A stretch of DNA of 42,265 nucleotides from assembly GCA_022616105.1 (NCBI GenBank), contig JAKEFL010000231.1, positions 1 to 42,265 of the forward strand, read 5' to 3'. Within the stretch, counting starts at the first letter, position 1, and each line of letters opens with the position of its first letter. Both the position numbers and the translations under genes were made by a program. The notes below the pieces were generated by a model. The model did no database searches and was not told where the DNA came from. It was given only the letters and a program-made list of their open reading frames with translations. Source of the DNA: Anaerolineae bacterium. Lineage in GTDB: Bacteria > Chloroflexota > Anaerolineae > Anaerolineales > Villigracilaceae. Below are positions 4,173 to 26,772 of this stretch, in pieces.

Positions 4173-5156
4173 ATGAATAACGATAGTATTCTCATCGTCG
4201 GCACAGGCGCGCTTGCCACGCTTTTCGCCGCGCGCCTGACACAAGCGGGACATCATGTCACCTTACTTGGCACATGGAAAGAGGGAATTGATGCATTACG
4301 CAAGAACGGCGCGCGGTTGATCGATACAAATGGAAATGAACATCAGTTTGAAGTCCATGCGACAGATGACGCACATGAATGTGTAGGTACAAAACAAGCG
4401 CTCGTGCTTGTCAAAGCCTGGCAAACGGAGCGCGCCGCGGGACAATTAAAAGAATGTCTCGCAGATGATGGACTCGCAGTCACTCTCCAAAATGGACTAG
4501 GGAATTACGAGACACTGGTTCAAGTTCTTAATTCATCTGCCACAGACGCTTCGCGCACAGAGCAAAAAAGAGAAAAAGACTCAAAGAACTCAGTGATCTC
4601 TGTGGCTCAGAAATATTCGCGTGTGGCATTAGGCAGTACCACTACTGGAGCGACTCTGCTCGGGCCTGGTCTGGCAAAAGCGGGTGGAGAGGGGATTATC
4701 TCCATTGAACGGCATCAGGCTTTAGGTCCGATTGAGGCGGCGTTGAGGTCCGCAAAATTCAATGTACAAATCGTTGAAGATGCGCAATCATTAGTCTGGG
4801 GAAAGCTGGTCATCAACGCGGCGATCAATCCATTGACGGCGTTATTGCGAGTCACAAATGGCGAATTACTACAGCGCCCGTCCGCACGTGAAATGATGGG
4901 AGCATTAGCATGTGAAGCCGCGCAAGTCGCAAAGGCTGAGAAAGTTGAGTTGCCATTCACCGACCCAATTGCTGCGGTGGAGGATGTGGCGCGGAAGACC
5001 GCTGCAAACCGTTCATCCATGTTGCAGGATATACTTCGTAATGCGCCAACGGAGATCGATGCGATCTGTGGCGCTGTGATAAAAGCCGCACAAAAGCATC
5101 AAATTGACACACCTGCCAATTGGGCTTGTTGGAATTTGATCAAAGCCATATCTTAG
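4173..5156 (+). CDS. panE: 2-dehydropantoate 2-reductase with a repeat-derived internal insertion
   Basis: N-terminal GTGALATLFAARLTQAGHHVTLLGT, LQNGLGN, STTTGATLLGPG, KLVINAAINPLTALL. Confidence 0.92.
   Translation: MNNDSILIVGTGALATLFAARLTQAGHHVTLLGTWKEGIDALRKNGARLIDTNGNEHQFEVHATDDAHECVGTKQALVLVKAWQTERAAGQLKECLADDGLAVTLQNGLGNYETLVQVLNSSATDASRTEQKREKDSKNSVISVAQKYSRVALGSTTTGATLLGPGLAKAGGEGIISIERHQALGPIEAALRSAKFNVQIVEDAQSLVWGKLVINAAINPLTALLRVTNGELLQRPSAREMMGALACEAAQVAKAEKVELPFTDPIAAVEDVARKTAANRSSMLQDILRNAPTEIDAICGAVIKAAQKHQIDTPANWACWNLIKAIS
4556..4604. repeat. Repeat element inside panE
   Basis: cacagag...ctctgtg termini; related phrases recur at 41172-41211 (cacagag...ctctgtg). Encodes roughly RTEQKREKDSKNSVIS. 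Confidence 0.6.
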
Positions 5157-5194
5157 CAAATGGAATTGAAATCAATTTTCGGGATTTTCATTGG

Positions 5195-5352
5195 CTCACC
5201 TTACGCGCTTTAATACTTTTTAGGTATGTCACCCTGAGCGACAGCGAAGGGTCTCTGAGACAATCGAAGAGATTCTCACCTGCATGATTTGCTTAGCAAA
5301 TCACGTGCGGCGCAAGTGTCGCTTCGCTCAGAATGACACTCCGTAAGGTGAG
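5195..5352. repeat. Nested intergenic repeat: outer 11-bp inverted repeat around a gtcaccctgagc...gctcagaatgacac element
   Basis: ctcaccttacg (5195-5205) / cgtaaggtgag (5342-5352); inner element at about 5225-5339. The left inner arm recurs inside the heparinase-like ORF. Confidence 0.7.
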
Positions 5353-5431
5353 TTATTGATTGGTTCACCTGACCAGTTAAAAGCCCCTCTTTGGTGGGGC
5401 AACCTTTGTGGGTAATCCACGTATACCTAAT

Positions 5432-5512
5432 ATTACAGCGCAAGGTTGCGAGTAAAAAGCCGCTAACGAGGTCTGATTTACCTTCGTGAAAATACCTACT
5501 TTGCGCTGTAAT
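5432..5512. repeat. Element with 12-bp perfect inverted repeats
   Basis: attacagcgcaa (5432-5443) / ttgcgctgtaat (5501-5512). Confidence 0.6.
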
Positions 5513-5547
5513 ACTAAGTGCCACTCAAGTTAAAAAGGAGAAGAGAT

Positions 5548-6129
5548 ATGTTCACGAATCGTTCAAATCCCGGTTCACTCATTGCGGGCGCCGCCTTGAT
5601 TGCGGTTGGCTTGCTCGCGCTGGCAGGTCAGCTCTTCAGAGGGTTTGATTTCTGGGGAGCCATCTGGCCATTTTTCATCGTTGGCGCCGGCGCATTGTTC
5701 TTTGTAGGAATGTTCAGCGGTGGGAAACCAGCTGCAGGTCTGGCAATCCCCGGCTCCATCCTCATTGCCGTTGGGCTGATGCTGTTCCTGCAAAACCTGT
5801 TTGGGCATTGGGAAAGCTGGGCATACGGCTGGACCGTGATCCTGATGGCAGTAGGTATTGGTATTTACATTATGGGACGGTACACGGAAAACCCAGGTCA
5901 ACGTGCGAGCGGGCTGAGTCTGATCAAAATCGGCGCGATTATGTTCGTTGTCTTCGGTGCGTTCTTCGAGATGATTTTCAATTCGTTCGCTTTCTCAAGG
6001 TTCCTATTTCCTGCAGCGTTGATTTTGTTTGGCGTCTATCTCATCTGGGGGCGTTCCCGTTCGCTGACCAAACCTCAGGACATGCCAGCAGAGATGACGA
6101 ACTCATCTACAAGTTTGGAGGAAAAATGA
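5548..6129 (+). CDS. Multi-pass membrane protein, LiaF/DUF5668-like TM region
   Basis: Repeated TM hairpins (GSLIAGAALIAVGLLALAGQL, ...GSILIAVGLMLFLQNLFG); RBS aaggag before ATG 5548. Confidence 0.75.
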   Translation: MFTNRSNPGSLIAGAALIAVGLLALAGQLFRGFDFWGAIWPFFIVGAGALFFVGMFSGGKPAAGLAIPGSILIAVGLMLFLQNLFGHWESWAYGWTVILMAVGIGIYIMGRYTENPGQRASGLSLIKIGAIMFVVFGAFFEMIFNSFAFSRFLFPAALILFGVYLIWGRSRSLTKPQDMPAEMTNSSTSLEEK

Positions 6130-7076
6130 ATCAACGTTCGTTATTTTGGCCCCTGACGCTGATCGCAACCGGCGTGGTCTGGCTGATGGTCAGCATGAAT
6201 GTCATCCCTGCCGCGAATCTGTGGGCGTTGACTTATATCTGGCCCTATGTGTTGATCCTGCTTGGGCTGGGATTAATTTTGCGAAGTTACCTGCCCGCGG
6301 CTGGATGGATCGTCTCGGCGCTGATCGTGATCGGCGCGGTGGCAGCGGTCGTCTTTGCACCTCGATTGGGCTGGGCGGGTGGACCAAGCATGGCTTTCGG
6401 CCCAGATTTTGGTGGGGGTGTCCCAGGATCCGGGAAGATTGAATCGGAAACGCGCGAAGTGCAGGGTTTCCTTGCAGTATCAATCAACTATCCCGCAGAA
6501 GTCCTCATCCAACAAGGCAAAGTCGAATCAGTGAAAATCGAAGCGGATGATAATTTGCTTTCACAGCTCACAACCGAAGTGAATGATGATACTCTTGTCA
6601 TCGAAAATAAAGAGGAGCGCTGGTCAGAGCGCGTAAACCCCACGGAGCGTGTGAAGATCACGATCACTGTAAAGGATTTGCATGAGATCGAGTTTTCCAG
6701 CGCAGGGAATTTGCGAGTGGAAGGTTTGAAGACTGATGAATTAAGTTTGAAACTGAACGGTGTGGGCGAAATGATATTGAATGATCTCGATGTGCGCAAA
6801 CTGGAATGCCGGCTCAGCGGTGCAGGCAACATCGAAGCCAATGGCGTAGCCGATGAGCTTGATATCAGAATCAGTGGGGTGGGCGGTTTCGATGCGCCGA
6901 AACTTGAAAGCATGGTTGCCAACGTCCGCATCAGTGGCGCAGGCAGTGCCACAGTGTTCGTCAAAGATGACTTAACGGCCAGAGTGAGCGGCGCTGGGTC
7001 GATCAACTACTATGGCTCACCTACTTTGCACGAAGAGGTCTCTGGTGCAGGATCGGTAAGCCAGGTCGACGAATAA
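6126..7076 (+). CDS. LiaF-like TM region fused to a DUF2807-type (GIN) beta-repeat domain
   Basis: N-terminal TM helices; C-terminal repeats SSAGNLRVEGL, LSGAGNIEANG, ISGAGSATVFV, VSGAGSINYYG. Confidence 0.85.
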   Translation: MNQRSLFWPLTLIATGVVWLMVSMNVIPAANLWALTYIWPYVLILLGLGLILRSYLPAAGWIVSALIVIGAVAAVVFAPRLGWAGGPSMAFGPDFGGGVPGSGKIESETREVQGFLAVSINYPAEVLIQQGKVESVKIEADDNLLSQLTTEVNDDTLVIENKEERWSERVNPTERVKITITVKDLHEIEFSSAGNLRVEGLKTDELSLKLNGVGEMILNDLDVRKLECRLSGAGNIEANGVADELDIRISGVGGFDAPKLESMVANVRISGAGSATVFVKDDLTARVSGAGSINYYGSPTLHEEVSGAGSVSQVDE

Positions 7077-7206
7077 CTCTGGCTGACAGTCATTTTCTGG
7101 AAAGTTTAAAGGCAGGTTGTAACTTATTAATATCGCGCTGGGAGTAAATTTCAGGTAAAATTAGGCAAAGAAGATTATATATAATATATAATCTCAAGGA
7201 GATTGA

Positions 7207-8712
7207 ATGCCTGGCTTTACTCCCGGCCGAAGATGGCAGCCTGCCTACTCCCCCTTCCAAAAAGAGACCTTTGGCGAACACGCCCTGCGAGTGCTCGAAT
7301 ACAGCGTGAAGGGTCCGCTGTTTGGGTGCCGCATGTGCGGGAATTGTTTACTGGCAGAGACCGCGCTGATCTGCCCGATGGAATGTCCAAAGGGATTGCG
7401 CAACGGTCCATGCGGAGGCTCCACATCCGAATATTGCTACGTGGATAAAAGCCGTCCATGCATCTGGTACAAGATTTACGAACGTTCATTTGAATGGGGG
7501 CGTGAAGCTGTATTGCTTGAAGTGCTTCCGCCGCTCGATTGGGAACAAGTGGGAAAAGATTCGTGGAGCGCAATTTTCAGGAACGCGAGAAACATTGGTG
7601 TAAAGAAAATTTTTAGCGGATTACTTTCACGTTCGTCTGACGTGCGCGCACAAACATTGGATGGGATTTTCCGTCCTGTACGTCAGCCTGAGTGGTGGCA
7701 AGGCGATTCGAAATATCATCCGCCCGCGTACACAGAACCCGCTTCAGAACTGGAACAGAGGCTGGTCGCCGGTGAATTTGTCGTTACTTGCGAAGTGACA
7801 CCTCCGTTATCTTCCTCCACTGACAGGTTGATCCACAACATCGAAATGGTCAAGCCTTATGTGACGGCAGTTAATTTCACGGACAATCAATCCGCGATGC
7901 CGCGCATGACCTCGTGGGCATGCAGTCAGGTTGCGATGAGTCATGATGCTGAACCGGTTTTGCAAATGTCGGCGCGCAATCGTTCGCGTGGAAGTCTGCA
8001 AAGCGAGATCATCGGCGCGACCGCGCTCGGTGTGCGAAATGTTTTGTGTGTAACAGGCGACAGTGCCAAACTCTCCCCCTCCCCGCGCGATCAAATGGAT
8101 ATTAATGATCTGGATTCAATCCAAATGTTGTGGGTGTTGCGTCGTATGCGCGATGAAGGCAAATATTTGGATGGACGCGAGATCAAATATCCGCCCATGT
8201 TCTTCCTCGGCGCGGCGGCTTCGCCATTTTCGTCCAATGTGAAATTTCAGGCATTGCGCGAACAAAAGAAGGTCAACGCTGGGGCACAGTTCTTCCAGAC
8301 CAATTTGATTTTCGATGTGGATGGAATGGAACTCTGGTTGAATGAACTCGCGAAGAGAAATGTGTTGGATAAGGTCTACATTCTGGCTGGCGTCACACCC
8401 ATCAAGAGTTTGAAGATGGCACAAAAACTTGCAGAAGTTCCAGGAGTATATCTTCCAAAGAATATTCTTCAAAGAATGGAAGTTGCAGACCGAGCAGGTA
8501 ATGCTCAGGCAGAAGGCGTGCAAATCGCGCTGGAAGTCATTCGTAGAATCAAGACTTATGAAAAACAGGGAATTCACGGAATCCACCTCATGCCCGTTGG
8601 GTGGGATGAGATTGTTCCGCGGATTGTTATGGAGGCAGGGTTGATTCGGCGGGCTGAAGCCCTGCCTCAGTTCATGGAAGTCCGCTCAAGCGGACTCAGG
8701 ATTTCAGCGTAG
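7207..8712 (+). CDS. Methylenetetrahydrofolate reductase with N-terminal MTHFR_C/MetV-like cysteine-rich domain
   Basis: CRMCGNCLL...CPMECPKGLRNGPCGG followed by MTHFR-like EFVVTCEVTPPLS...NVLCVTGD; RBS aaggag. Confidence 0.85.
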   Translation: MPGFTPGRRWQPAYSPFQKETFGEHALRVLEYSVKGPLFGCRMCGNCLLAETALICPMECPKGLRNGPCGGSTSEYCYVDKSRPCIWYKIYERSFEWGREAVLLEVLPPLDWEQVGKDSWSAIFRNARNIGVKKIFSGLLSRSSDVRAQTLDGIFRPVRQPEWWQGDSKYHPPAYTEPASELEQRLVAGEFVVTCEVTPPLSSSTDRLIHNIEMVKPYVTAVNFTDNQSAMPRMTSWACSQVAMSHDAEPVLQMSARNRSRGSLQSEIIGATALGVRNVLCVTGDSAKLSPSPRDQMDINDLDSIQMLWVLRRMRDEGKYLDGREIKYPPMFFLGAAASPFSSNVKFQALREQKKVNAGAQFFQTNLIFDVDGMELWLNELAKRNVLDKVYILAGVTPIKSLKMAQKLAEVPGVYLPKNILQRMEVADRAGNAQAEGVQIALEVIRRIKTYEKQGIHGIHLMPVGWDEIVPRIVMEAGLIRRAEALPQFMEVRSSGLRISA

Positions 8713-8741
8713 TAGGTGGAGCAGGTAAAAAATAACATCTC

Positions 8742-8805
8742 GTACCGCGGCTTCGCGGTGTCGCTCTACCCAACGCAGGCGACACCGCGAAGCGTGTCGC
8801 GGTAC
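8742..8805. repeat. Intergenic hairpin repeat
   Basis: gtaccgcg...gcttcgcggtgtcgc pairs with gcgacaccgcgaagc...cgcggtac. Confidence 0.75.
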
Positions 8806-8822
8806 ATTTTGGAGAGGAATTC

Positions 8823-9695
8823 ATGCACACTATCTTGAAAAGTAATACTAAAACTGTCACCATAGGTGCAGACAAGCCGTTCGTCATCATCGGTGAAAAG
8901 ATAAACCCGACTGGAATCAAGAAACTTGGACAGGCGCTCGTTGACCAAAACTTCGAGTACGTCAAATATCTCGCGCAGAGACAAGTCGCCTGGGGCGCGG
9001 ATGTGTTGGATGTCAATGTCGGTCACCCACAGATTGACGAAGCCGCGATCATGCCGAAGGTAGTTGAAGCAGTCTTGTCCGTTGTGGATGTGCCATTGTG
9101 CATTGACTCAAATGAGCCGAAGATCCTGGAAGCTGGTTTGAAGGTAACGCCCGGAAAGCCGTTAGTGAATTCAGTGAACGGAGAGGACAAGCAACTGGCG
9201 ACAGTTCTGCCCATCGTCAAGGATCGAGGCGCGGCGGTGATTGGGATGGCAATCGGCAATGAGGGTATCCCTGCTACACCGGAGGGACGTCTCGCCGCGG
9301 CGGGGAAGATCATTGAGCGCGCGGCAAAGATGGGCATCCCGATCGAGGACATTGTCATTGACCCTCTTGTGATGACGGTGGGTCATAACAGCAACGCGGG
9401 CCTGGTGACGTTGAAGTCGATTGAGTTGATCAAGAAGGAATATGGGGTAAATATGAGTCTTGGCGCGAGCAATGTCTCGTTTGGTCTGCCAGACCGTCAT
9501 TCGGTGAACAGCGCGTTCCTTGCACTGGCAGTGCAGACAGGTGTGACCATATCCATTACTGACCCGATCAAATTGGGAAGTTCCATCCGCGCGATCGATT
9601 TATTACTTGGTAAGGACGCGAATTCGATGAGGTATCTGAAGTATTTCAGAATGACGGAGAAGTTGAGGGCGGAAGAGGCGGCAGTGATGGTGTAG
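8823..9695 (+). CDS. Dihydropteroate synthase-like methyltetrahydrofolate:corrinoid methyltransferase (AcsE-like)
   Basis: IIGEKINPTG, GADVLDVNVG, PLCIDSNEPKILEAGL, NSVNGE, VIDPLVMTVG, SLGASNVSFGLPDR. Confidence 0.88.
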   Translation: MHTILKSNTKTVTIGADKPFVIIGEKINPTGIKKLGQALVDQNFEYVKYLAQRQVAWGADVLDVNVGHPQIDEAAIMPKVVEAVLSVVDVPLCIDSNEPKILEAGLKVTPGKPLVNSVNGEDKQLATVLPIVKDRGAAVIGMAIGNEGIPATPEGRLAAAGKIIERAAKMGIPIEDIVIDPLVMTVGHNSNAGLVTLKSIELIKKEYGVNMSLGASNVSFGLPDRHSVNSAFLALAVQTGVTISITDPIKLGSSIRAIDLLLGKDANSMRYLKYFRMTEKLRAEEAAVMV

Positions 9696-12126
9696 TAATT
9701 GGCCCCACAGGGATGCTTCGCAATAAGTGGTAATTGTGGAGGAATCGGAGAATTAGAGACTGGAGATTGGAAGGGCTGGTGGTTGAGTAGCCCGAAGCGA
9801 CACTTGCACCGCACGCAAGTGCAGGTGTAGCGAAGGGTGTATCGAAACCACCAGTAAGTAAAGCAACTTTTGTTACAAGAGTGTTTTTGATTCCTGTTGG
9901 TTTCGACTGCTTGCGCTCGACCAGCGGAATTTTATTTGAATTAATCTTTAGATCATTTTCTTCTACTTCAACAACATCATTTTCAAATCCAAAGAACGTC
10001 CAAAAAGTGACTTGGGATTGATTTGCCTCAAGCATCACGGAAATGGCTGGTTCTTTGTGACCGTAATATCGCGAACGCCAGCCGCGCGTGGAGTTGGGGT
10101 CCGCGCGGACGATAGAGAAGTTCTCGTTTCCTTCCATCAATCCCATTTCAATCAAAATTTTGGAGTCGGACAGCTTGCTGTCAGTTTTTGCTGGAGTCAG
10201 CCATAAGCCATGTGCAGTAGCAAGCTCCTGCACTCCAAAATCTCCATCACAGAGCAACCAATGCAAAGCATAACGATGTGGTTCGTTTGCGATAAGGTTA
10301 TCAATGACAAGCCAGCGGTCATCTTCTAATATCATCACAGTTCGTTTGTGAGCCACGGGTTTGTAGCCATTGTGTTCGCCTTGCCAGATTTTTTCGTTGT
10401 GTTTAAGAACTTTGCCTTTTGCCCAATTCGTCCACGTGAAGCGACTGAACATGGTCATTTGGTCTTTGCCATCTACAGTTACTGTATTATGAACAGAGGT
10501 GCGTGCAAAACCATTGCGCCAGATGCCTTTACCGCTGTATAGATAGGTCCCCGCATCGCAGGCGATATTGTGACCGTGAATCCACAAGTCTACGTGGAGT
10601 TGGTCGGCGTGGGAGGGGCGGGAGCGGAAGTCCGTGCAGCGGATGAGGGCTTTGCTGTTTGCACCGCGGAGGAGGAATACTCCCCCATTAAGAAAACTTG
10701 TGCTATCTTGACTCTCCCTCACCCTAACCTCTCCTTCGGAGCGCTTCGCAGTCTCCCGCTGGGAGAGGGGACTCGTGCCATATAACCAAAATATATCTTC
10801 GTCCCATTCACCAGAGTCAAATAATGATTCGCCTTTTGTTATAAAGGAACCCAACTGCAAAAGCGGACGATAATCGGTGAAGTCGCAGTTGTTCAATGGC
10901 AGGACTAAGGCACCATCATTTGAACCATAGACAGGCATTTGTCCTGTTTGGGGGTCGATAAGTTGGGAGAGGTAGGTGATAGAGGATGAGGTTTTTTGAT
11001 AAACGAGACTGGAGACTGGAGATTGGTTTAACTCGCCTAGTCGAATCATGTACAGATAGATTTGCAGGATAAAGCGATGATAATTCAGCGAATACATAGA
11101 GTAACTACCATCGTGGAAAATTTGTTTAACTGCTTCCTCTTCGAGTAGTTTCTTACCTAGTGCAAGATATTTTTCCGCGTCTTTCAATTCGGGGAAAAGC
11201 AATCCAACTAACCATAATCCAAAGGCTTCGCTGATGGTGTGATTGCTTTTTGTGGAAATAGCGTAGTCAATGTTCTTATAGATCCGTTCGGCTTGTGCGG
11301 CGACGAACGTAGTGAACCGCGCGATGTGTTGAGGAGTTGCAGAAGGAGAATTAGAGAATTGGTAGTAACCGAACATCCATGCCATGAGGCGGAGGACGAT
11401 TTCCTGTCCGTCTTTCCAGTTGGCGCCTGTGTTCGGAGGATTATGTTCCGCCCAATCAAGAATCAATTGCCAGAAGGCTTCGGCGTATTTTTCATCTTGA
11501 GAGGCGGCATAGGCGCGGACGAGGGTGTAGACAAAACTGAATCGGTTCGCTTCCCAGATAAATTTGATATCAATGTTGGCATCGTCGGAGATTTGGGACC
11601 AGTGTTTGGTAGATATGTCACTCTGAGGGAGCGCACTTAGCGACCGAAGAGTCTCGGATGGTTGATGTAGAGACCCTTCGCTATCGCTCAGGGTGACATA
11701 GCTGGAAAAATAATCTTGCTGCCAATTGGGAGGAAAACCAGTTTGATGAAATTGATGAGCAAAATATCTTATTTCGCCAGATAAGATTCGATTGGCTTCA
11801 TCAATAGCGGTTTGCTTATTCCATGGGAGGGTTGAAGGTAAACGCGCTTCGTCTGCGCTCGACAATCGCTCGCTCCGTTCAGCGCGAAGAGAACCGAAAA
11901 AAAACTTAGGAGAATTTTGTTTTCGCCATTGAGTATATGATTCAGGGTTCGATGAGATATCTTTCTTCAACCAAGTTTCAAGCGGGCGGTCATTCCATCT
12001 ATATTGTGGCATTTGCAAACGGATGAGTCCCGTGCGGAGGCGAAAGGCGTAGACGAGGCGAAAGACTGACCAACGGAATCCAAGCTCTCGGTAGAGCGAA
12101 GCGAACGTCTGGAGTTTCATCAACAT
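9646..12126 (-). CDS. Heparinase II/III family protein carrying several repeat-derived insertions
   Basis: IKFIWEANRFSFVYTLVRAYA, NHTISEAFGLWLVGLLFPEL, RPSHADQLHVDLWIHGHNIACDAGTYLYSG, HNTVTVDGKDQM. Confidence 0.88.
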   Translation of the reverse strand: MLMKLQTFASLYRELGFRWSVFRLVYAFRLRTGLIRLQMPQYRWNDRPLETWLKKDISSNPESYTQWRKQNSPKFFFGSLRAERSERLSSADEARLPSTLPWNKQTAIDEANRILSGEIRYFAHQFHQTGFPPNWQQDYFSSYVTLSDSEGSLHQPSETLRSLSALPQSDISTKHWSQISDDANIDIKFIWEANRFSFVYTLVRAYAASQDEKYAEAFWQLILDWAEHNPPNTGANWKDGQEIVLRLMAWMFGYYQFSNSPSATPQHIARFTTFVAAQAERIYKNIDYAISTKSNHTISEAFGLWLVGLLFPELKDAEKYLALGKKLLEEEAVKQIFHDGSYSMYSLNYHRFILQIYLYMIRLGELNQSPVSSLVYQKTSSSITYLSQLIDPQTGQMPVYGSNDGALVLPLNNCDFTDYRPLLQLGSFITKGESLFDSGEWDEDIFWLYGTSPLSQRETAKRSEGEVRVRESQDSTSFLNGGVFLLRGANSKALIRCTDFRSRPSHADQLHVDLWIHGHNIACDAGTYLYSGKGIWRNGFARTSVHNTVTVDGKDQMTMFSRFTWTNWAKGKVLKHNEKIWQGEHNGYKPVAHKRTVMILEDDRWLVIDNLIANEPHRYALHWLLCDGDFGVQELATAHGLWLTPAKTDSKLSDSKILIEMGLMEGNENFSIVRADPNSTRGWRSRYYGHKEPAISVMLEANQSQVTFWTFFGFENDVVEVEENDLKINSNKIPLVERKQSKPTGIKNTLVTKVALLTGGFDTPFATPALACGASVASGYSTTSPSNLQSLILRFLHNYHLLRSIPVGPITTPSLPPLPPSTSPSF
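9776..9854. repeat. Repeat element in the C-terminal coding part of the heparinase-like gene
   Basis: ctggtggtt / aaccaccag termini enclosing cgacacttgcaccgcacgcaagtgcaggtg, related to 12186-12215. Confidence 0.7.
10713..10771. repeat. Repeat element (ctccctcaccctaacctctc... type) within the heparinase-like gene
   Basis: tctccctcaccctaacctctcc...gggagagggg; related to the element in recQ (26357-26447). Encodes SPLSQRETAKRSEGEVRVRE. Confidence 0.65.
11615..11699. repeat. Repeat element (gtcaccctgagc type) within the heparinase-like gene
   Basis: atgtcactctgag...ctcagggtgacat; minus strand atgtcaccctgagcgatagcgaagggtctct nearly matches 5225-5254. Encodes YVTLSDSEGSLHQPSETLRSLSALPQSDI. Confidence 0.8.
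11844..11888. repeat. Repeat segment within the heparinase-like gene
   Basis: gcgcttcgtctgcgc...gctccgttcagcgcgaa matches the intergenic repeat at 3018-3054. Confidence 0.7.
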
Positions 12127-12174
12127 TAAGAAGGGATTTAAAACACGAAGGAAAATCCTTAAGGATTAAGAACC

Positions 12175-13224
12175 TTAGTGGACCTCACCTGCACTTGCGC
12201 CAGGTGCAAGTGTCGTGTCCTTTGTGGTTAAAGATTTTGCATGGCGAGATAAGAGAATCCAAATGAGCGGAAGTCCCAAAATAATCAATGGCGGGGCATA
12301 GACTTGTCCCCATGACCACGCGTAGGAGAGCAGGCCCGCGAGCAGAGTCAGGGAAATATACAATGTGCTAATGGCTGCATGACTGTAGCCGCCAATGACC
12401 AGACGTTGATAGAGATGTGTGCGATGCGCGGTAAAAATATTTTCACGTTTGAGGGCTCGGCGAATGAAAGTTACGCCCGCGTCCATGATGAAGGTCCACA
12501 TCAGGAGCGTGCCGAGCATGAGCGCGTCGCCGCTTTGATCGGACGATATCAAAGGTAGAGCCGCAAAGGTATAACCGAGAAACGTGCTGGCAACGTCGCC
12601 CATGAAAATTTTTGCAGGCGACCAGTTATGACCCAGAAAACCCAAGCTGCTCGCAGCGATGGCTAATGCAATCCAAAACGCAAACGGACTATGCGCGTTG
12701 GTCGCTAGCAACATCCAGCCTAGACTACCTGCAAATGCCACACCGCCCGCGATGCCGTCAATACCGTCCATGAAGTTATAGGCGTTCGTCAAGCCGATGA
12801 TCCACAAAAACGTGATGACGACTCCTACCACTCCCAGTTGCAATTCTCCGAACAATGGAATCGTGACCGATTTGAAATACCCCAACCCATAAATCGAGAC
12901 CACCGCGACAAGCCCGTGCACCGCAAAACGGACGCGCGTCGAAAGGGATGAGACATCGTCGCGCCAACCTAACCATGCAATGACCAAACCACATGCAATA
13001 TAAATAAGCACACGGCTTGCATCCGCTTCCTTCATTGACCATAAAGCTGTCGCTATTACCAACATAACAATTGCCAGCCCGCCCCCGCGCGGCGTGGGCA
13101 TGGAATGTAAACTGCGTTCGTTTGGATGGTCTATGATTTGACGTCGGTCCGCGTAACGACGAATGAGGTAGACGCCGATGTAAGAGAGGATGGTGAGTAG
13201 GAGGAAGATAAGAAGTTGGGTCAC
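12175..13224 (-). CDS. MraY/WecA-like glycosyl-1-phosphate transferase (paralog 1)
   Basis: NAYNFMDGIDGIAGG, GFLGHNWSPAKIFMGDVASTFLGY, RRALKRENIFTAHRTHLYQRL. Confidence 0.9.
   Translation of the reverse strand: MTQLLIFLLLTILSYIGVYLIRRYADRRQIIDHPNERSLHSMPTPRGGGLAIVMLVIATALWSMKEADASRVLIYIACGLVIAWLGWRDDVSSLSTRVRFAVHGLVAVVSIYGLGYFKSVTIPLFGELQLGVVGVVITFLWIIGLTNAYNFMDGIDGIAGGVAFAGSLGWMLLATNAHSPFAFWIALAIAASSLGFLGHNWSPAKIFMGDVASTFLGYTFAALPLISSDQSGDALMLGTLLMWTFIMDAGVTFIRRALKRENIFTAHRTHLYQRLVIGGYSHAAISTLYISLTLLAGLLSYAWSWGQVYAPPLIILGLPLIWILLSRHAKSLTTKDTTLAPGASAGEVH
12186..12215. repeat. Hairpin repeat at the 3' end of the WecA-like gene
   Basis: cacctgcacttgcgccaggtgcaagtgtcg; near copy at about 9799-9829 (reverse strand). 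Encodes DTLAPGASAGE. Confidence 0.65.
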
Positions 13225-13287
13225 AGAGATGATTGTAAACGAGACTTGAAATTTTCGCTCTCAATAACTCAATGATAGAATTAGCAA

Positions 13288-14637: not shown

Positions 14638-14642
14638 GGATC

Positions 14643-15720: not shown

Positions 15721-15741
15721 ATGTTAGCATTGTGCTAACAT
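15721..15741. promoter_or_regulatory. Probable toxin-antitoxin operator
   Basis: atgttagca-ttg-tgctaacat inverted repeat ending 6 bp before the GTG start. Confidence 0.65.
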
Positions 15742-15747
15742 AGAGTC

Positions 15748-16391: not shown

Positions 16392-16436
16392 AATTTGGCG
16401 GCGAAGAGCCACCTTTTTGTTTGAGTTAAGAGACTT

Positions 16437-16493
16437 TACTCAACTCCAATCTTATCCCTCCTCAAACGAAAACGGACTGGACCAAAAGTATAT
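16437..16493 (-). repeat. Second copy of the epimerase-tail sequence, flanking the TA cassette
   Basis: ctttactcaactccaatcttatccctcctcaaacgaaaacggactgg vs ctttactcaattcaattcttatccttcctcaaacgaaacggactga at about 15553. Confidence 0.7.
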
Positions 16494-17504: not shown

Positions 17505-17505
17505 A

Positions 17506-18375: not shown

Positions 18376-19592
18376 GTCTTCACTAAATTTTTAAGCAGTT
18401 GCAAAGTTTCATCCAACTTATCATGCCGATCAAGATGCCTGACCAGATACGCGCGCGCATTCATTCCCATTTGATTTGTGCGCTGAGGGTCTTTTGAAAG
18501 TTCGAGAATTGTTTTTGCAAGCATTTCATCATCCCCAGGGTTGACATAGATTCCCCCATCAGAGGACTCGATCACTTCGCGGATGACGCCGTCGATCACA
18601 AGGATGGTAGGGCGCGCAGCCGCCATATAATCGAAAACCTTGTTCGGATAGGTTGTGCGAAACATGGGAATATTCTGTAAGATCGCCAGGCACACATCCG
18701 ACGAAGCCAGCACAAAGGGCATCTCTTTTTTCGGACAAGGACCTGCGAAGATTATGTTATCGAGTTTCTTATGACTTGCTTCCGCCTCCAGCCGCGTCCG
18801 TTCCTTGCCATCACCGAACAGGATAAAACGGATTTTGGATTCATCCTGCAAACGCAAGGCTGCGCGCAGGATCGTATCAATGTCGTTTGCCTGTCCTAAT
18901 GCTCCTGCATAAACAACTGTGAATTTATCATCCAATCCGAATTTCTTTCGGATGTGTGAGCCATCCACATTTGGGTTAAACATGTTGATATCTGTTCCAT
19001 AAGGAATGAATGTGATCTTCTTTCCAGGCACGCCTTTGCCAAGCAGATATTCCTTATAGGCAGGTGAATTGACTAATATATGTGTTGCATGTTTATACAG
19101 GAAGTTTTCAAGCCAGCGCGCAGGCACAATGACAATTGGATTCCTGATCACGCCCATGCTAATCCCGAACTCGGGCCACAGATCGCGCACCTCCAGCAGG
19201 AAGGGTTTGCGCCGCAGCCAGGCTACAAACCATGCAGATAGCGCTTGAAAGATCTGCGGTGTTGTGCCCATGATGATGTCCGCATCTTTCACGAATAAAG
19301 CCGTCCACACGGAACTGAACATAAAGCTGAAAAAGGAAACAATACGCCAAAAATAACTGCGATGCAGTTCAGGATAGATATAAGCGCGAAGGATTCGCAC
19401 ACCATCAATGACCTGTTCGGTGAACATACCGCGATGCTTTACAATGCGTTGACCAGTCTGGTAATTCAGGTCACTGGCAACGATGACCAATTCGTGTCCA
19501 TGTTTGAGCAAGTATTGAGCCATTTCAAAGTGGCGAGTATGCCCCGGTTCATCAGGAGAAACAAAAGCTTGATGGAGCAATAAGATTTTCAT
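18372..19592 (-). CDS. Glycosyltransferase family 4 (WbuB-like)
   Basis: LLHQAFVSPDEPGHTRHFEMAQYL..., EVRDLWPEF, VVYAGALGQANDIDTIL, TYPNKVFDYMAAARP. Confidence 0.9.
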   Translation of the reverse strand: MKILLLHQAFVSPDEPGHTRHFEMAQYLLKHGHELVIVASDLNYQTGQRIVKHRGMFTEQVIDGVRILRAYIYPELHRSYFWRIVSFFSFMFSSVWTALFVKDADIIMGTTPQIFQALSAWFVAWLRRKPFLLEVRDLWPEFGISMGVIRNPIVIVPARWLENFLYKHATHILVNSPAYKEYLLGKGVPGKKITFIPYGTDINMFNPNVDGSHIRKKFGLDDKFTVVYAGALGQANDIDTILRAALRLQDESKIRFILFGDGKERTRLEAEASHKKLDNIIFAGPCPKKEMPFVLASSDVCLAILQNIPMFRTTYPNKVFDYMAAARPTILVIDGVIREVIESSDGGIYVNPGDDEMLAKTILELSKDPQRTNQMGMNARAYLVRHLDRHDKLDETLQLLKNLVKT

Positions 19593-19844
19593 CTATGGTC
19601 ATTATAAATTATATATGGGATAAAGAACCGCTCATGCTGCGCCCAGGCATGTCTCGCTTCGATGGCATCCACCAGTTTAGAAATTTTCCTACAGTCAAAA
19701 TACTTAATGTTATTACTCACCCAGATTTGAATTTAACAATATTTTCAAAATCAACATGAATTATAATAAGCGTATAAGGATTCCATACAAATCCATCGCG
19801 AATCCTCATATTCACCCCAATACAACAAATAGAAAGGAATTACC

Positions 19845-20327
19845 ATGGGCCTCTTCTCAAAAATTCTTGAAAAGCTTGGGATTAAAAAGGACAAACAGGC
19901 GGGAGCAACTGCGACTGTCACTGAAAAGCCTGCCGCGTCAGCTCCGGCACCAAAGGTCAGTGCACCTGCCAAGCCAGCCCCAGCAGCCACATCCAGGGCT
20001 GCCTCTACACCCAAACCTGCTCCGGTTCCAGTTACACCCAAAGTGGCAGCTCCGACTCCGATTTCAGAAGTTGATGTGGTTAGCAAGCTTGAGGGACTTG
20101 CCGCCAATAATCCCGCAAAACTTAACTGGAAGGTATCGATCGTGGACCTTCTAAAACTCCTCGATCTGGAAAGCAGTTTTGAGGCACGCAAGGAAATGGC
20201 AGTCGAGCTTGGCTGTCCTCCCGAACTGATGAATGATTCTGCCAAGATGAATACATGGCTTCACAAGAAAGTTCTACAGGAAATTGCCGAAAACGGCGGA
20301 AATGTTCCAAAGGAACTGTTAGACTAG
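19845..20327 (+). CDS. DUF3597 domain-containing protein
   Basis: Ala/Pro-rich linker then KLNWKVSIVDLLKLLDLESSFEARKEMAVELGCP...NTWLHKKVLQEIAENGGNVPKELLD. Confidence 0.85.
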   Translation: MGLFSKILEKLGIKKDKQAGATATVTEKPAASAPAPKVSAPAKPAPAATSRAASTPKPAPVPVTPKVAAPTPISEVDVVSKLEGLAANNPAKLNWKVSIVDLLKLLDLESSFEARKEMAVELGCPPELMNDSAKMNTWLHKKVLQEIAENGGNVPKELLD

Positions 20328-20346
20328 AGAAAAATCAATGTATCAG

Positions 20347-20374
20347 CAGCGTGGACTTGAATAAGTCCACGCTG
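20347..20374 (+). terminator. Hairpin after the DUF3597 gene
   Basis: cagcgtggactt-gaat-aagtccacgctg. Confidence 0.7.
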
Positions 20375-20513
20375 TTGTGATTTATTCAGACAAGTTGTTG
20401 AAAATGATTGGGACTCTTAATAAAGTCTCATTTTCATTTTAGAAAGGAAATAACCCTGAGAGTCTTTGAGAGTCTCACTGCATAGAATTATATGTGAAGA
20501 AAGGAATTTATTC

Positions 20514-20918
20514 ATGGAAATCCCAAGACACTGGAGACTCAAAAAACAACGCTACGGGCTGGTCGGTGAAGTTTGCCCCCATTGCGATTACAAGATTTTC
20601 CCCCCACGAGATGTCTGCCCAAACTGTGGCGACGAAGCCAAAGACCTCTATACATTTAGCGGCAAAGGCGAAGTGTACTCTTATACTACCGTTTATGAAG
20701 CCCCCAGCGGCTACGATAGCAGCGCCCCTTATACTGTGGCACTCGTAAAACTGGACGAAGGTCCCATGGTCACTGCCCAACTTACAGATGTAGACAATGA
20801 CGCGGTTGAAATCGGTATGCCTGTTGAGATGGTTACCCGCAAGATGCGAAATGACGGGGATGAGCGCGGACTCATCGTCTATGGCTACAAATTTCGTCCC
20901 CGCCTGGCTGTTGCATAA
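20514..20918 (+). CDS. Zn-ribbon/OB-fold DUF35 protein
   Basis: CPHCDYKIFPPRDVCPNCG then GEVYSYTTVYEAPSGYDSSAPYTVALVKLDEGPMVTAQL. Confidence 0.85.
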   Translation: MEIPRHWRLKKQRYGLVGEVCPHCDYKIFPPRDVCPNCGDEAKDLYTFSGKGEVYSYTTVYEAPSGYDSSAPYTVALVKLDEGPMVTAQLTDVDNDAVEIGMPVEMVTRKMRNDGDERGLIVYGYKFRPRLAVA

Positions 20919-20983
20919 TCTCTCGTAAGGTGGAATGGCATCCCGCCCTACGTGCCATTACAAAAAGCAATTTAGATACCCAT

Positions 20984-21006
20984 CGTCCTGCCGAATTGGC
21001 AGGACG
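20984..21006 (+). terminator. Terminator-like hairpin after the DUF35 gene
   Basis: cgtcctgcc-gaatt-ggcaggacg followed by attttgtt. Confidence 0.7.
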
Positions 21007-21025
21007 ATTTTGTTATGTACAAATA

Positions 21026-21039
21026 TAAAGTTGTATAAT
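21026..21039 (+). promoter_or_regulatory. Predicted -10 region for the SWIM gene
   Basis: taaagttgtataat, identical to the 14-mer upstream of recQ. Confidence 0.55.
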
Positions 21040-21067
21040 ACGGACATCCCCTTCTTTGGAACGTTCC

Positions 21068-22807
21068 ATGACATCTATTCCACACCTCAAAAAATCCGAT
21101 GTCGTCCGATGGACAGATGAAATTTATTTTCAACGGGGTCAAAAGTACTTTGAAGCGGAAGCCATTTATGACCAACGCCGTGAGGGAATGACGCTCAAAT
21201 CCAAATGCTCTGGGAGCCAGGCGCCTTTTTATCAGCAGAAAGTGATATTCGACAGCAAAGGGATTCAGTCTGCGGAATGTTCCTGTCCCGTGGGCGATGG
21301 CGGACATTGCAAACATGCCGTTGCGTTACTGCTTACATGGGTCAACGATCCTGATTCGTTTCAAGAAGTTGAAGCGCTGGAGGAGATTCTCGAAAAACGA
21401 ACCAAAGCTGAACTGATTGTCATTGTTAAACAAATGCTCGATCAGGAACCAGATCTCGAGTCCCTCCTGGATTTGCCATTTTCACAGGAAGAAAGCCAGC
21501 CGCTCAACGTCAAAGCGATTCGTCAACAGGCGCAAAATGCTTTTCGTAATGTGGATTATGAATGGGGCTACACGCGCGAAATCAAACAGGTTTTGAATCC
21601 GCTTTTGAAACTCGCGGCGAGTTATCTCGCCCGTAATGATGCGGAAAATTCCGCCCTCATATATGAAACCATCATCGAATCCATTATAGACAATGAAAAT
21701 GCGGCTCTTGGCGATAAAGAAGGAGAATTGCTGAGGGTTGTATATGATTGCGCTGAGGCCCTCGGAGAGTGTCTAACTCCTATCGCTGACTCGAAGACGC
21801 GGATTGAGATTTTACAAATCTTATTCAGCGCCTATCGGTGGGACACTATCAAAATAGGCGGCGTCGGCGCAGCGGACTGTGTGCCAGAAATTCTCACATC
21901 ACAAACAACATCTAAAGAGCAGAAAGAAATAGCACAATGGACGCGCGAAATCATGCCAAAAGGAAACAGTTGGAGCGATGGCTACCATCGCGAAGTCCTG
22001 GGCAGGCTATTGCTCGACCTTGAGGCAAATACTCTCGATGATGAAGCCTATTTGAAGATCTGCCGAGAGACAGGGCGATTGAACGACCTGATCGAACGCC
22101 TGCTCAAACTCAAAAGAATTCAAGAAGCCGAAGAAGATGCCAAAGCCGCGGAAGATTATCCGCTTTTTCGTGCGCTTGAGATTTTTACAAAACACAAACA
22201 AGCCGACCTTGCCGAAAAAATTGTGACGGAACGCTTGAAAACAATCGAAGATGACCGCCTGATAGAATGGCTTTCAGAAAGATACAAACAACGCGGCAAT
22301 TTGGCTGGCTCATTAAATTTAGAAGAACGCTTATTCCGGAAATACCCTAACATCGAGAAATACAAAAAACTTCACAAACTGGCAGGGCAGCTTGACCGCT
22401 GGGGGCATTTGCGGGCCCAAATCATCAGCGAACTTGAAAACAAAAAGGATTTTCATTTCCTGATAAGTATCTACCTTTTTGAAAAAGAAGTGGGGAAAGC
22501 GCTTGCAATGCTTGAAAAATTACCGCCTCGATGGGGAGACCATTCTACGCAATTTGAAGTGGCACAGGCGGCAAAGAAGCAATATCCTCAGGAAGCCATT
22601 CGAATATTCACGAATGAAGCAGAACGATTTATTGACTTTCGCAACCGCGACAGTTATTCACAAGCCGCGCTTTGCCTGCATGAGGTTCGCGATATCTATC
22701 GCCAAATGAACGAAATGGAATCCTGGAACAAACTCATCAAAGAAATACGCGAACGGTATAAAAAACTCCCTGCCCTTCAGGACGAATTGCATCAACTCAA
22801 GTTATGA
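21068..22807 (+). CDS. SWIM zinc-finger domain protein
   Basis: AECSCPVGDGGHCKHAVALLL (CxCx(n)CxH) and helical repeat-like remainder. Confidence 0.85.
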   Translation: MTSIPHLKKSDVVRWTDEIYFQRGQKYFEAEAIYDQRREGMTLKSKCSGSQAPFYQQKVIFDSKGIQSAECSCPVGDGGHCKHAVALLLTWVNDPDSFQEVEALEEILEKRTKAELIVIVKQMLDQEPDLESLLDLPFSQEESQPLNVKAIRQQAQNAFRNVDYEWGYTREIKQVLNPLLKLAASYLARNDAENSALIYETIIESIIDNENAALGDKEGELLRVVYDCAEALGECLTPIADSKTRIEILQILFSAYRWDTIKIGGVGAADCVPEILTSQTTSKEQKEIAQWTREIMPKGNSWSDGYHREVLGRLLLDLEANTLDDEAYLKICRETGRLNDLIERLLKLKRIQEAEEDAKAAEDYPLFRALEIFTKHKQADLAEKIVTERLKTIEDDRLIEWLSERYKQRGNLAGSLNLEERLFRKYPNIEKYKKLHKLAGQLDRWGHLRAQIISELENKKDFHFLISIYLFEKEVGKALAMLEKLPPRWGDHSTQFEVAQAAKKQYPQEAIRIFTNEAERFIDFRNRDSYSQAALCLHEVRDIYRQMNEMESWNKLIKEIRERYKKLPALQDELHQLKL

Positions 22808-22882
22808 CCATCACAGCCCAGTCAACCGAGTTTGCTTCAGAGTTCTGTTGCATCAATTTGCCATTTATGGCATAATAATTTC

Positions 22883-23518
22883 ATGAAATTTGCTGAGTTG
22901 CTTTCCCTTGTTGGAGATCAACCGGTTTTTGAAACGGGATTGCTCCTGGCAGGGAATGTAGACCCCAATGATGTGCGTCGCCAACTCTCACGCTGGGTGC
23001 ACACTGGAAAAATTCGCCAACTACGACGGGGGTTGTATATGTCTGCGCCGCCATACCAGAATGTCGTACCACATCCTTTTTTAATTGCCAATGCGCTCAT
23101 GCCTGGCTCCTACGTCAGCGAACAATCAGCATTGGCGTATTATGGGCTGATTCCAGAATACACGCCTCGCACACTCAGTGTTACGATGTCGCGCCCAGCA
23201 CAATGGGAGGATGGTTTTGTTTTTCGGCATCTTGCCCCGCACCTGTTTTTTGGCTATCAATCCATCGAAGTTGCTCAGAGACAGCATGTCTTTGTTGCAC
23301 ATCCCGAGAAAGCCCTGCTTGACTTGGCGCATCTTACACCAAATTCAGATTCACTAAAGTATTTGTCCCAATTACGCTTGCAAAATCTGGAACGTTTAAA
23401 TTTGGACCGACTGTATGGTTTTGCCGAACGCGCTGGCAAGCCCAAGTGGAAACGAGTTGCCCACCAGGTTATCGTGTTGGCACGGCAGGAAGAAAGCGAA
23501 TATGAGGAGTTACGATGA
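22883..23518 (+). CDS. AbiEi-type antitoxin (type IV TA)
   Basis: LRRGLYMSAPPYQNVVPHPFLIANALMPGSYVSEQSALAYYGLIPE; ATGA overlap with the AbiEii gene. Confidence 0.85.
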   Translation: MKFAELLSLVGDQPVFETGLLLAGNVDPNDVRRQLSRWVHTGKIRQLRRGLYMSAPPYQNVVPHPFLIANALMPGSYVSEQSALAYYGLIPEYTPRTLSVTMSRPAQWEDGFVFRHLAPHLFFGYQSIEVAQRQHVFVAHPEKALLDLAHLTPNSDSLKYLSQLRLQNLERLNLDRLYGFAERAGKPKWKRVAHQVIVLARQEESEYEELR

Positions 23519-24333
23519 AAGAACATCTGGCAACATTGATTCAATCGTCACCGTCTCCTGTTGAAGCACGTAACCTGGCGCGCGAATACTTGCAAGCTCT
23601 GATCTTGCAAAGTCTACAGCGAGCAAGTGCAATGACCTCATTTGCGTTTCATGGAGGTACTGCCTTAAGATTTTTATATTCCCTGCCGCGTTATTCTGAA
23701 GACCTGGATTTTGCTCTTGAACGTGCATCCGATTCATACAATTTTCGATCCTTCCTTCAAACCATTCGCAAAGATTTGGAAACACAAGGATATGCCATCG
23801 CGCTCAAGGTAAACGATCAGAAAACGGTCCACAGTGCATTTGTCCGTTTTTCAGGGTTGCTCTATGAGTTGAAATTGACTCCGCATCAGGATGAAATTTT
23901 GGCGGTGAAACTTGAAGTGGATACTAACCCACCAAAGGGAGCCGTATTGAATACATCGCTTGTTCGCCGTCACATTTTACTTAATTTACAACACCATGAT
24001 CAGTCATCTTTGCTTGCTGGCAAACTTCATGCAATTTTGCAACGCCCATATCTCAAAGGACGCGATATATATGATCTCCTCTGGTATTTGAGTGATAGGA
24101 ATTGGCCCGCCCCCAACCTGATTTTGCTGAATAATGCATTGAAACAAACAAACTGGGATGATCCAACCCTGACTGCGGAAAACTGGCGTGAGATCGTACG
24201 CACTCGAATCGGATCAAGTTCCTGGGAGCGCGTTATGGATGATGTTCGCCCATTCCTCGCATCGCAACAGGAAATCGAGTTGTTGACAAAGGAAAACCTG
24301 ATCAGGCTGCTCAAGAAAGATTCTTTGGATTAA
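23515..24333 (+). CDS. Nucleotidyltransferase AbiEii/AbiGii-type toxin
   Basis: FAFHGGTALRFLYSLPRYSEDLDFAL; GRDIYDLLWYL. Confidence 0.92.
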   Translation: MKEHLATLIQSSPSPVEARNLAREYLQALILQSLQRASAMTSFAFHGGTALRFLYSLPRYSEDLDFALERASDSYNFRSFLQTIRKDLETQGYAIALKVNDQKTVHSAFVRFSGLLYELKLTPHQDEILAVKLEVDTNPPKGAVLNTSLVRRHILLNLQHHDQSSLLAGKLHAILQRPYLKGRDIYDLLWYLSDRNWPAPNLILLNNALKQTNWDDPTLTAENWREIVRTRIGSSSWERVMDDVRPFLASQQEIELLTKENLIRLLKKDSLD

Positions 24334-24492
24334 AGCCTATGTCCATTTATGCCGAATGCGTCTACAAAACACGTACCTGAGCGTGATGGGAAGGCCAATG
24401 ACACACGTCGCAAGCAGATGCCGTCACGCTGTGCTTCGATGTTCTCCATAATATCCCCTGTCAATTTTGACAGGGCAATTTTGTTTCTATCT

Positions 24493-24506
24493 TAAAGTTG
24501 TATAAT
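24493..24506 (+). promoter_or_regulatory. Predicted -10 region for recQ
   Basis: taaagttgtataat 14-mer shared with 21026-21039. Confidence 0.55.
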
Positions 24507-24522
24507 CCCTGCATCCTATTCT

Positions 24523-26772
24523 TTGGAACCTAATGTGATATCCACTACGAATTTACTTTCCATCTCATCCATTCTAAAAGACACCTTCGGCTACGATACC
24601 TTTCGTCCGCTTCAACGTGAAGTGATCGAAAACGTGATGGCTCGCCGCGACACGCTCGCAGTCATGCCCACGGGCGGAGGCAAATCACTCTGCTATCAAA
24701 TCCCGTCGCTCCTTTTTGATGGGCTTACTGTCGTTGTCTCTCCTCTCATTTCGTTGATGAAAGATCAAGTGGAGCAGTTGCGCGCCTTTGGTGTCCCTGC
24801 CCTGTTCCTCAACAGTTCGCTGGCGCCACAGGAATATCAGGAGAACATGGACTATATAAAGCGCGGCGAAGTAAAACTGTTATACGTCGCGCCTGAAACG
24901 CTCCTCACCCCGCGTATCCTCTCACTCCTTTCGTCGCTTCAAGTGGACTGCCTGACGATTGACGAAGCCCACTGCATCTCAGAATGGGGTCACGACTTTC
25001 GCCCTGAATATCGTCAAATCATCGAAATACGAAAACGATTCCCAAACGCGGTCTGTCTCGCCCTTACTGCTACTGCCACCTCGCGCGTGCGGCAGGATAT
25101 TCGCTCCACCCTCAAGTTCACAACCACAAACGAATTCATCGCCAGTTTCAACCGCGAAAATCTCTATATCGAAGTCATTCGCAAACGCGACCCGATCGGG
25201 CAAACCATTCAGATGCTTGAACGTTTCAAGGATCAATCAGGCATCATTTATTGTTTCTCGCGTAAACAAGTGGATGAACTCGCCGCGTATCTCGCTTCAA
25301 AAGGATATTCTGTCCGTCCATATCACGCGGGATTGGAAGATTCAGACCGCCGCAGAAATCAGGAGGCATTCATCCGCGATGACGCACAAATCATCGTTGC
25401 CACCATTGCGTTCGGCATGGGCATCAACAAGCCAAACGTACGCTTTGTCATTCACTTCGATCTGCCCAAGAGCATTGAAGGTTATTATCAGGAAATCGGC
25501 CGCGCGGGACGTGACGGCTTGCCCGCGCATTGTCTTCTCCTCTACAGTTATTCGGATGCCGCCAAAATCAACTACTTCATTGAACAAAAGGATGGGGACG
25601 AAAAACGCGTCGCCATTGAACATCTGAATGCAATCGTACGTTATGCGGAAGATGAGATGACCTGCCGCCGCAAACCGCTCCTCAACTACTTCGGCGAATC
25701 ATTCCAAGCTGACACCTGCTCCAACTGCGACAACTGTACCTCCGCCCCTACCGCGCTGACAGATATCACAGTCTTCGCACAGAAATTCCTCTCCTGCGTC
25801 AAACGCGCGGAGGAAAAATTCGGCGCGGGTCATATCACAGATATATTGCTCGGTTCGAAAAACGAAAAGGTCCTGCGCTGGGAACATGACAAACTGTCCA
25901 CGTATGGCATCGGCCCGGAACTTACGAAGAAACAATGGATGCACATCGCGCGTCAACTCATGACAATGGGGTATCTGAAACAGGAGGGCGAGTATCACAC
26001 ATTGAGTCTCACGGCGCGGGCGTTGGATGCGCTCAAGAAAAGAGAACCAATTTTCGGCGTCGTGCAGGAAGCGGAGCGTGTCCGAACAAAAGGAAAGAAG
26101 AAAGTGGAGTTGGAGTATAACCACGCTTTGTTTGCATTGCTCCGTCAAAAACGCAAAGAGATGGCAGACGAAGCAGGTGTACCTCCATACGTCATCTTCT
26201 CCGATCGAACCCTCATAGAAATGTCCGCTTATTATCCACAGTCGTTTGCAAGCCTCCTGAATATCTCTGGTGTGGGACAGGCAAAAGCCAGTCAATATGG
26301 CGACGCGTTTTTGGAAGTTATTCAATCATATTGTAAAAAGCATAGACTCGCGGAAATCCCTCATCCCCGACTCCGCGAAGCGTCCCGAGGGGAGAAGGGA
26401 GCGGCATCCCCCTTTCCCAATGGGAGAGGGGCTGGGGGTGAGGGAGAACTGAGCGAGCGCACGTGGCTCGTCGCTGAAGCATTCAATGAAGGTGCGACGA
26501 TTCAAAATTTAATGGAACGACATCAAGTCACAAAAGGAACGATTCTCGAACATCTCACAAAATACGTGATGGCAGGCAACATCCTGCGAAACGGAGAAGA
26601 CCTGGTATCGCTTGCAGCGGTCACGGCCGAACAAAAACAAGCCGCCTTCACTGCGTTCGATGAACTCAGCCCAACATTTCTCAAACCTGTGTTTGACAAG
26701 TTGAACGGAACATTGAATTACGATGAATTGAAAATTTTGCGAATGTTGTATTTGATCGCGCGACAGGGGTAA
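24523..26772 (+). CDS. recQ: ATP-dependent DNA helicase RecQ with repeat-derived linker
   Basis: AVMPTGGGKSLCYQIP, IDEAHCISEWGHDFRPEY, GIIYCFSRKQVDELA, QEIGRAGRDG, Zn cysteines CSNCDNC, HRDC. Alternative GTG start at 24535. Confidence 0.95.
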   Translation: MEPNVISTTNLLSISSILKDTFGYDTFRPLQREVIENVMARRDTLAVMPTGGGKSLCYQIPSLLFDGLTVVVSPLISLMKDQVEQLRAFGVPALFLNSSLAPQEYQENMDYIKRGEVKLLYVAPETLLTPRILSLLSSLQVDCLTIDEAHCISEWGHDFRPEYRQIIEIRKRFPNAVCLALTATATSRVRQDIRSTLKFTTTNEFIASFNRENLYIEVIRKRDPIGQTIQMLERFKDQSGIIYCFSRKQVDELAAYLASKGYSVRPYHAGLEDSDRRRNQEAFIRDDAQIIVATIAFGMGINKPNVRFVIHFDLPKSIEGYYQEIGRAGRDGLPAHCLLLYSYSDAAKINYFIEQKDGDEKRVAIEHLNAIVRYAEDEMTCRRKPLLNYFGESFQADTCSNCDNCTSAPTALTDITVFAQKFLSCVKRAEEKFGAGHITDILLGSKNEKVLRWEHDKLSTYGIGPELTKKQWMHIARQLMTMGYLKQEGEYHTLSLTARALDALKKREPIFGVVQEAERVRTKGKKKVELEYNHALFALLRQKRKEMADEAGVPPYVIFSDRTLIEMSAYYPQSFASLLNISGVGQAKASQYGDAFLEVIQSYCKKHRLAEIPHPRLREASRGEKGAASPFPNGRGAGGEGELSERTWLVAEAFNEGATIQNLMERHQVTKGTILEHLTKYVMAGNILRNGEDLVSLAAVTAEQKQAAFTAFDELSPTFLKPVFDKLNGTLNYDELKILRMLYLIARQG
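26357..26447. repeat. Repeat element inside recQ
   Basis: tccctcatccccgactccgcgaagcg...tgggagaggggctgggggtgagggaga; related to 10713-10771. Encodes PHPRLREASRGEKGAASPFPNGRGAGGEGE. Confidence 0.75.

Follow-up and report, generated by a model that had tools for sequence, protein, structure and literature searches.

Taken together, the window, samples of its genome and the genomes of its relatives lead us to propose, with a probability of roughly 0.85, that short repeats insert widely in the DNA of these bacteria, that selection purges nearly all of the copies falling in coding sequence, and that in-frame copies in permissive protein linkers survive and are repeatedly replaced. The source is a 4.0 Mb Anaerolineales (Chloroflexota) metagenome-assembled genome in 367 contigs; its nearest named relatives are likewise Anaerolineales of the Chloroflexota, one of them labelled Villigracilaceae. 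The window is the whole stretch of DNA that was analysed, 42,265 nt in length.

Repeat families between and within genes

We distinguish at least eight families, plus arrays of 7-nt tandem repeats. The families are defined by the motifs CCCTGAGCG..AGCGAAGGG (A), GTCATTGCGAGG...CGAAGCAATCTC (B), ACCTGCACTTGCG (C), CCCTCACCCC...CCCTCTCCC..GGGAGAGGG (D), GCGCTGAGCGGAGC (E), CACAGAGA...CTCTGTGGCT (F), CGCAAAG..CGCAAAG (G) and TGGTGGTTTCGA...CTCAACCACCAG (K); the heptamers include AATTACC, AATCTCC, GGACRRT and others, several per clade. The family A core occurs at 39 places in the genome with at most two mismatches (none in the backward-read control) and varies from 0 to 62 copies among 17 congeners (G001-G017). 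The family D palindrome (CCCCTCTCCC-N2-12-GGGAGAGGGG) occurs 36 times in the source genome and is found in 29 of the 37 genomes of the bacterial family, each time against a control of zero. The GGACRRT heptamer is present in 24 of the 37 (one match in the control) and absent from the source genome. Since the occurrence of these three differs between genomes, the repeat content is lineage-specific. Family K is represented by 13 intergenic copies in a 647 kb sample of the source genome. Computed folding energies indicate that most inserts could form hairpins. Period 7 dominates the tandem repeats in the intergenic DNA of the congener G011, with 16 arrays, whereas 0-3 were counted at each other period tested within the range 5-11. 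Within the window, Rfam 15 gave no match at the gathering threshold.

Two intergenic elements, neither assigned a strand, illustrate the architecture. A family B element (GTCATTGCGAGG...CGCAATGAC) at 2948-3067, with a repeat depth of 7, is predicted to fold into a long hairpin (-43.9 kcal/mol) and holds a nested family E copy at about 3018-3054, while a family A element at 5225-5338 (-49.9 kcal/mol) carries a C-like palindrome within its 3' arm. The initial annotation had asserted that words are common to intergenic and coding copies, and this is borne out at 90-96% over 23-40 nt: positions 5217-5256 are 90% complementary over 40 nt to 11669-11708 (intergenic versus coding, family A), 9798-9827 matches 12186-12215 at 90% over 30 nt, 5304-5326 matches 9793-9815 at 96% over 23 nt, and the likeness of the intergenic word at 3018 to the coding one at 11844 is directly visible. 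Single clear cases of nesting are C in K, C in A and E in B; a general preference of repeats for landing within repeats was rejected, as the 12 close pairs seen do not differ significantly from the 7.0 expected (300 permutations gave as many as 17).

Other features of the window are recorded here in their own right. Two 50-nt blocks at 21026-21075 and 24493-24542 (TAAAGTTGTATAAT...CTTTGGAAC) are 76% identical, and the second lies just 5' of recQ; they may represent a shared promoter or operator. An inverted repeat pair at 5425-5446 and 5498-5519 (ACCTAATATTACAGCGCAAGGT), without an Rfam match, lies between panE and the gene for a LiaF-like membrane protein. The region 29843-39987 encodes two related ORFs of about 1,050 residues with common diverged repeats D2/D3, the first being AcrB-type (RND) by Pfam, and an ABC transporter pair lies between them.

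Insert sites in conserved proteins

Repeats had been reported in frame in panE, a heparinase-like gene, the gene of WecA paralog 1 and recQ; reading back and translating the intervals confirmed that all seven inserts are free of stop codons and in the frame of the host gene. In panE, a family F palindrome (CACAGAG...CTCTGTG) occupies 4549-4608 on the forward strand, of which 4556-4604 encode residues 128-144. Four inserts lie on the reverse strand in the heparinase-like gene: a C palindrome nested inside a K palindrome (TGGTGGTTTCGA...CTCAACCACCAG) at 9776-9854 (residues 758-784), in a C-terminal extension that is absent in orthologs; a family D insert in a linker at 10713-10771 (residues 452-472); a family A insert (YVTLSDSEGSLHQPSETLRSLSALPQSDI; fold -35.5 kcal/mol) at 11614-11699 (residues 143-171); and a family E insert at 11844-11888 (residues 80-95), where most orthologs have a gap or other sequence. 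The predicted peptide TLSDSEGSLHQPSETLR spans one of the insert junctions in this protein. A family C palindrome at 12186-12215 (reverse strand, residues 337-347) forms the C-terminal tail of WecA paralog 1, whose orthologs have different tails, several of them repeat-like. Finally, a family D insert (fold -54.2 kcal/mol) occupies 26357-26447 of recQ on the forward strand (residues 612-642), between the HRDC and HTH_40 domains identified by Pfam.

The proposal that the inserts map to linkers or termini holds for the linkers and terminus of the heparinase-like protein, the interdomain position in RecQ and the WecA tail; the panE insert is instead, by alignment, in a loop inside the N-terminal domain. 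The heparinase-like inserts fall outside the best-matched stretches of both heparinase domains. An AlphaFold model of this protein, with pLDDT below 50 for about 94% of the insert residues, supports the linker reading weakly, because the model is mediocre (mean pLDDT 59) and about 38% of the remaining residues are also below 50.

Alignment with relatives revealed that the inserts of the heparinase-like protein, RecQ and PanE are missing, shorter or replaced in orthologs. The same residues in distant orthologs, which had been named as an outcome that would speak against the reading, were absent from relatives and from other families. The panE F insert is common to the congeners G009, G011, G012, G013 and G017 and missing in most other relatives; being common to several congeners, it is old and ancestral. 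Among 40 heparinase-like orthologs, scanned with the heparinase DNA masked and with three or more matches elsewhere required at each position, repeat positions coincide with the linkers at about 58-101, 137-182 and 450-476 and with the termini; short repeat motifs also occur at about 256, 370 and 650, and none elsewhere in the protein. Classification by family motif assigned 27 of the 40 in zone 137-182 (A in 15, B in 12, tandem repeats in 5, E in 2) and 24 of the 40 in zone 450-477 (D in 11, G in 11, few others). By comparison, 10 of 298 random windows from the core were assigned, and shuffling predicts about two assignments per zone; this classification leaves some linkers unassigned and may miss or misname old copies. 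The core of the heparinase-like gene is constrained, with differences of 46-48% at third, 17-23% at first and 10-15% at second codon positions.

Reading frames are preserved at these sites. Each intact heparinase-like ortholog matches in a single frame. Those orthologs that were inspected closely are open, with the sole exception of the valyl-tRNA synthetase (ValRS) of G015 (G015:C2:836583-839281), which is divided at about residue 329 between two adjacent frames and has one TAA. Of 186 repeat segments compared with ortholog proteins, every one that lay inside a gene with a reference kept the frame, and no gene was split; the comparison has low power because the reference covers only part of the proteome. 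Within this limited power, no tested repeat broke a frame, contrary to the other adverse outcome that had been envisaged, namely coding copies that mostly cause frameshifts.

Genomic distribution and turnover of occupants

The distribution between coding and intergenic DNA was determined in two samples: 60 contig stretches plus the window from the source genome (647 kb; 547 genes from a home-made caller) and 40 stretches (800 kb) from G011, a congener assembled as a single contig. A coding repeat was defined as a gene segment with three or more intergenic matches, and reversed genes served as the control. In the source genome the repeats account for 8,933 of the 128,285 intergenic nt, 506 coding nt and 33 nt of reversed genes (about 7%, 0.1% and 0.006%, respectively). 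The corresponding values in G011 are 4,535 of 140,587 intergenic nt, 396 coding nt and zero. Counts in both genomes thus indicate that coding copies are rare, being 50-70 fold depleted relative to intergenic DNA, yet well above the control. About 1% of sampled genes have inserts; outside the window these encode ValRS, glycyl-tRNA synthetase (GlyRS), ProRS-like, NRPS-type and helicase-like proteins, as well as an APH(6)/hydroxyurea-kinase-like protein, which has two. The ProRS-like protein (L129:12468-13691) is unusual in having editing and anticodon-binding domains and no match to the catalytic core; a C repeat lies near the expected place of the core, and a repeat-associated deletion is possible.

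The occupants of a given site change between close relatives. We mapped the state of the heparinase-like linker 450-477 onto a tree of 40 rows built from the core of this protein only, and found at least 18 changes, against 19.7 with shuffled labels. This number was the same for two labellings that differ in L040, L208 and L217, one of them being the classifier's own with mixed calls treated as one letter. Restricted to the D and G rows, 9 changes are found with the classifier's labels and 10 with the first labels. Opposite families (D versus G) occur in the sister pairs L032/L041 (from G017 and G011), L196/L198 and L199/L203, with SH-aLRT supports of 96-100; the pair L210/L217 is opposite in the first labelling only. 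A similar picture emerges for ValRS: of 30 genomes, 8 have family D and 7 have 7-nt tandems in the linker joining the catalytic core to the anticodon-binding domain (residues 606-631, approximately). Further arrays there look repetitive without being assigned to a family, and in several outgroups the linker is short and plain. Inspection by eye of protein sequences from other classes of the phylum revealed none of these families in this linker.

These observations would be explained by the following scheme. Unrelated, mostly palindromic families (A-G, K) and 7-nt tandems, present in many copies between the genes of these Anaerolineales, would multiply there, some copies landing inside genes. 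Purifying selection would then remove almost all genic copies, as indirectly suggested by the coding depletion and the near-absence from domain cores. The survivors, as the sites, frames and orthologs demonstrate, are in-frame copies free of stop codons that lie in linkers, surface loops or termini, where the additional residues are probably near-neutral padding. Permissive sites are hit many times over, so that sister species come to have unrelated repeats at one linker; the tree of the heparinase-like protein shows this, and it is also seen in ValRS. The palindromes may move by non-autonomous transposition or template switching, and the predominance of period 7 among the G011 intergenic tandems suggests that the 7-nt arrays arise by replication slippage. 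The repeats could be linked to no mobilising enzyme, and neither a target duplication nor a clean pair of filled and empty sites at strain level was found: seven Y1 transposase genes lack flanking copies of the main families, and one has an E-like 18-nt copy beside it. Mobilisation by a RAYT (Y1 transposase), as for REPs, is therefore unsupported. Copies of A and B appear by eye to start with GTCA, and inverted arms are seen in the folded inserts.

A single old insert per site, diverged until it resembles different families, would give the scheme a common-origin alternative comparable to that raised for RPE-4/6/7 (PMC3767692). Insert positions are indeed equal across species and some inserts, such as the panE F copy, are truly shared. 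However, the occupants (D, G, A, B, E and 7-nt tandems) are unrelated and each is multi-copy elsewhere in the sampled genomes or relatives, and well-supported sisters differ at one linker; we regard this alternative as very improbable. An assembly or binning artefact is less probable still: short-read assemblies can join or collapse at repeats, which are classic breakpoints, and the window comes from a fragmented assembly, but dozens of independent assemblies preserve the frames and comparable linker inserts occur in the single-contig genomes G011 and G025.

The reading frames bear on a further possibility, adaptive exaptation, in which repeats are kept for useful encoded peptides. Some inserts persist across species, as in panE, and the peptide TLSDSEGS occurs in more than one protein. 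Against this, family D is read in all six strand and frame combinations, so that its encoded peptide is not conserved, A and B are read in five each, and families are swapped at one site between sister species. The intergenic copies are overall as open as shuffled sequence and not more so, and the idea that the elements are adapted for openness in many frames was accordingly rejected. Exaptation thus seems to us highly unlikely, and we retain widespread insertion with purging and repeated replacement as the preferred explanation.

Relation to known repeats and significance

The Rickettsia palindromic elements (RPEs) offer the closest precedent. These palindromic repeats, which form several families, occur in intergenic DNA as well as in frame inside conserved proteins (PMC10969869, PMC2229807), and in R. 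japonica different RPE groups lie near one site in orthologs, the choice between a hotspot and one diverged insert having been left undecided (PMC3767692). The repeats described here are likewise palindromic, intergenic and in frame in conserved proteins, with several families and differing occupants at one site. However, RPE hosts are Rickettsiales, namely Rickettsia and Wolbachia (PMC3767692), whereas the present host belongs to the Chloroflexota; RPEs have a preferred frame, in which they encode a conserved peptide (PMC10969869), whereas family D is used in every frame; and the occupants of one site are here unrelated in sequence and include 7-nt tandems. For reasons of phylum and frame usage we do not call them RPEs; they work like RPEs, a likeness of description rather than of sequence match. 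The RPE-like process with several unrelated families put forward in the initial annotation is supported in this sense, as an analogy and not as family membership, and its "new protein segments" are to be understood as tolerated linkers, loops and tails only. The use of many frames, and unrelated families that share or replace one another at fixed linkers, suggest a variant distinct from known RPEs.

Other small repeats share part of this behavior. GTAG/CGTC REPs occur in frame within genes, for instance in O. terrae, R. conorii and Thauera, and linkers and loops have been suggested to tolerate them (PMC3733652). They resemble the present repeats in being short palindromes that keep the frame of unrelated host genes, among them genes for repair proteins and tRNA synthetases. 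REPs have a GTAG or CGTC tag at one end (PMC3733652), whereas the cores here do not seem, by eye, to be of either type, and no RAYT gene flanked by repeats was found. Bacterial MITEs with in-frame fusions, such as Correia, ERIC and YPAL (PMC2229807), are also small, hairpin-forming, mainly intergenic and sometimes fused in frame to genes; the repeats described here differ in having no demonstrated terminal target duplication or parent transposase. The 7-nt direct repeats TAACTGA of Beggiatoaceae and Cyanobacteria, whose copies within ORFs lie mainly at the protein periphery (PMC4679880), share the 7-nt tandem unit and the mainly intergenic location; they differ from our arrays, which are built of other heptamers, several per clade, and reach an internal ValRS linker. 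We found no report of such inserts in Chloroflexota in literature coverage that excludes most subscription journals.

Rickettsia is the best-known example of selfish repeats lying in frame in core proteins, and REPs provide scattered cases elsewhere (PMC10969869, PMC3733652). Dozens of species with unrelated families now constitute a natural experiment, which favors repeated insertion and replacement over one diverged insert. It also maps tolerant insertion sites in ValRS, GlyRS, RecQ and PanE, and implies that, in these proteins, neither linker sequences nor indels serve well as phylogenetic markers. We give about even odds to the broader view that linkers and tails of core proteins in this bacterial family are continually rebuilt from whichever extragenic repeats the genome currently hosts, with turnover by whole-repeat replacement between sister species. 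If true, linkers would also evolve by a route other than point mutation and slippage, and would do so in essential enzymes, ValRS and GlyRS among them.
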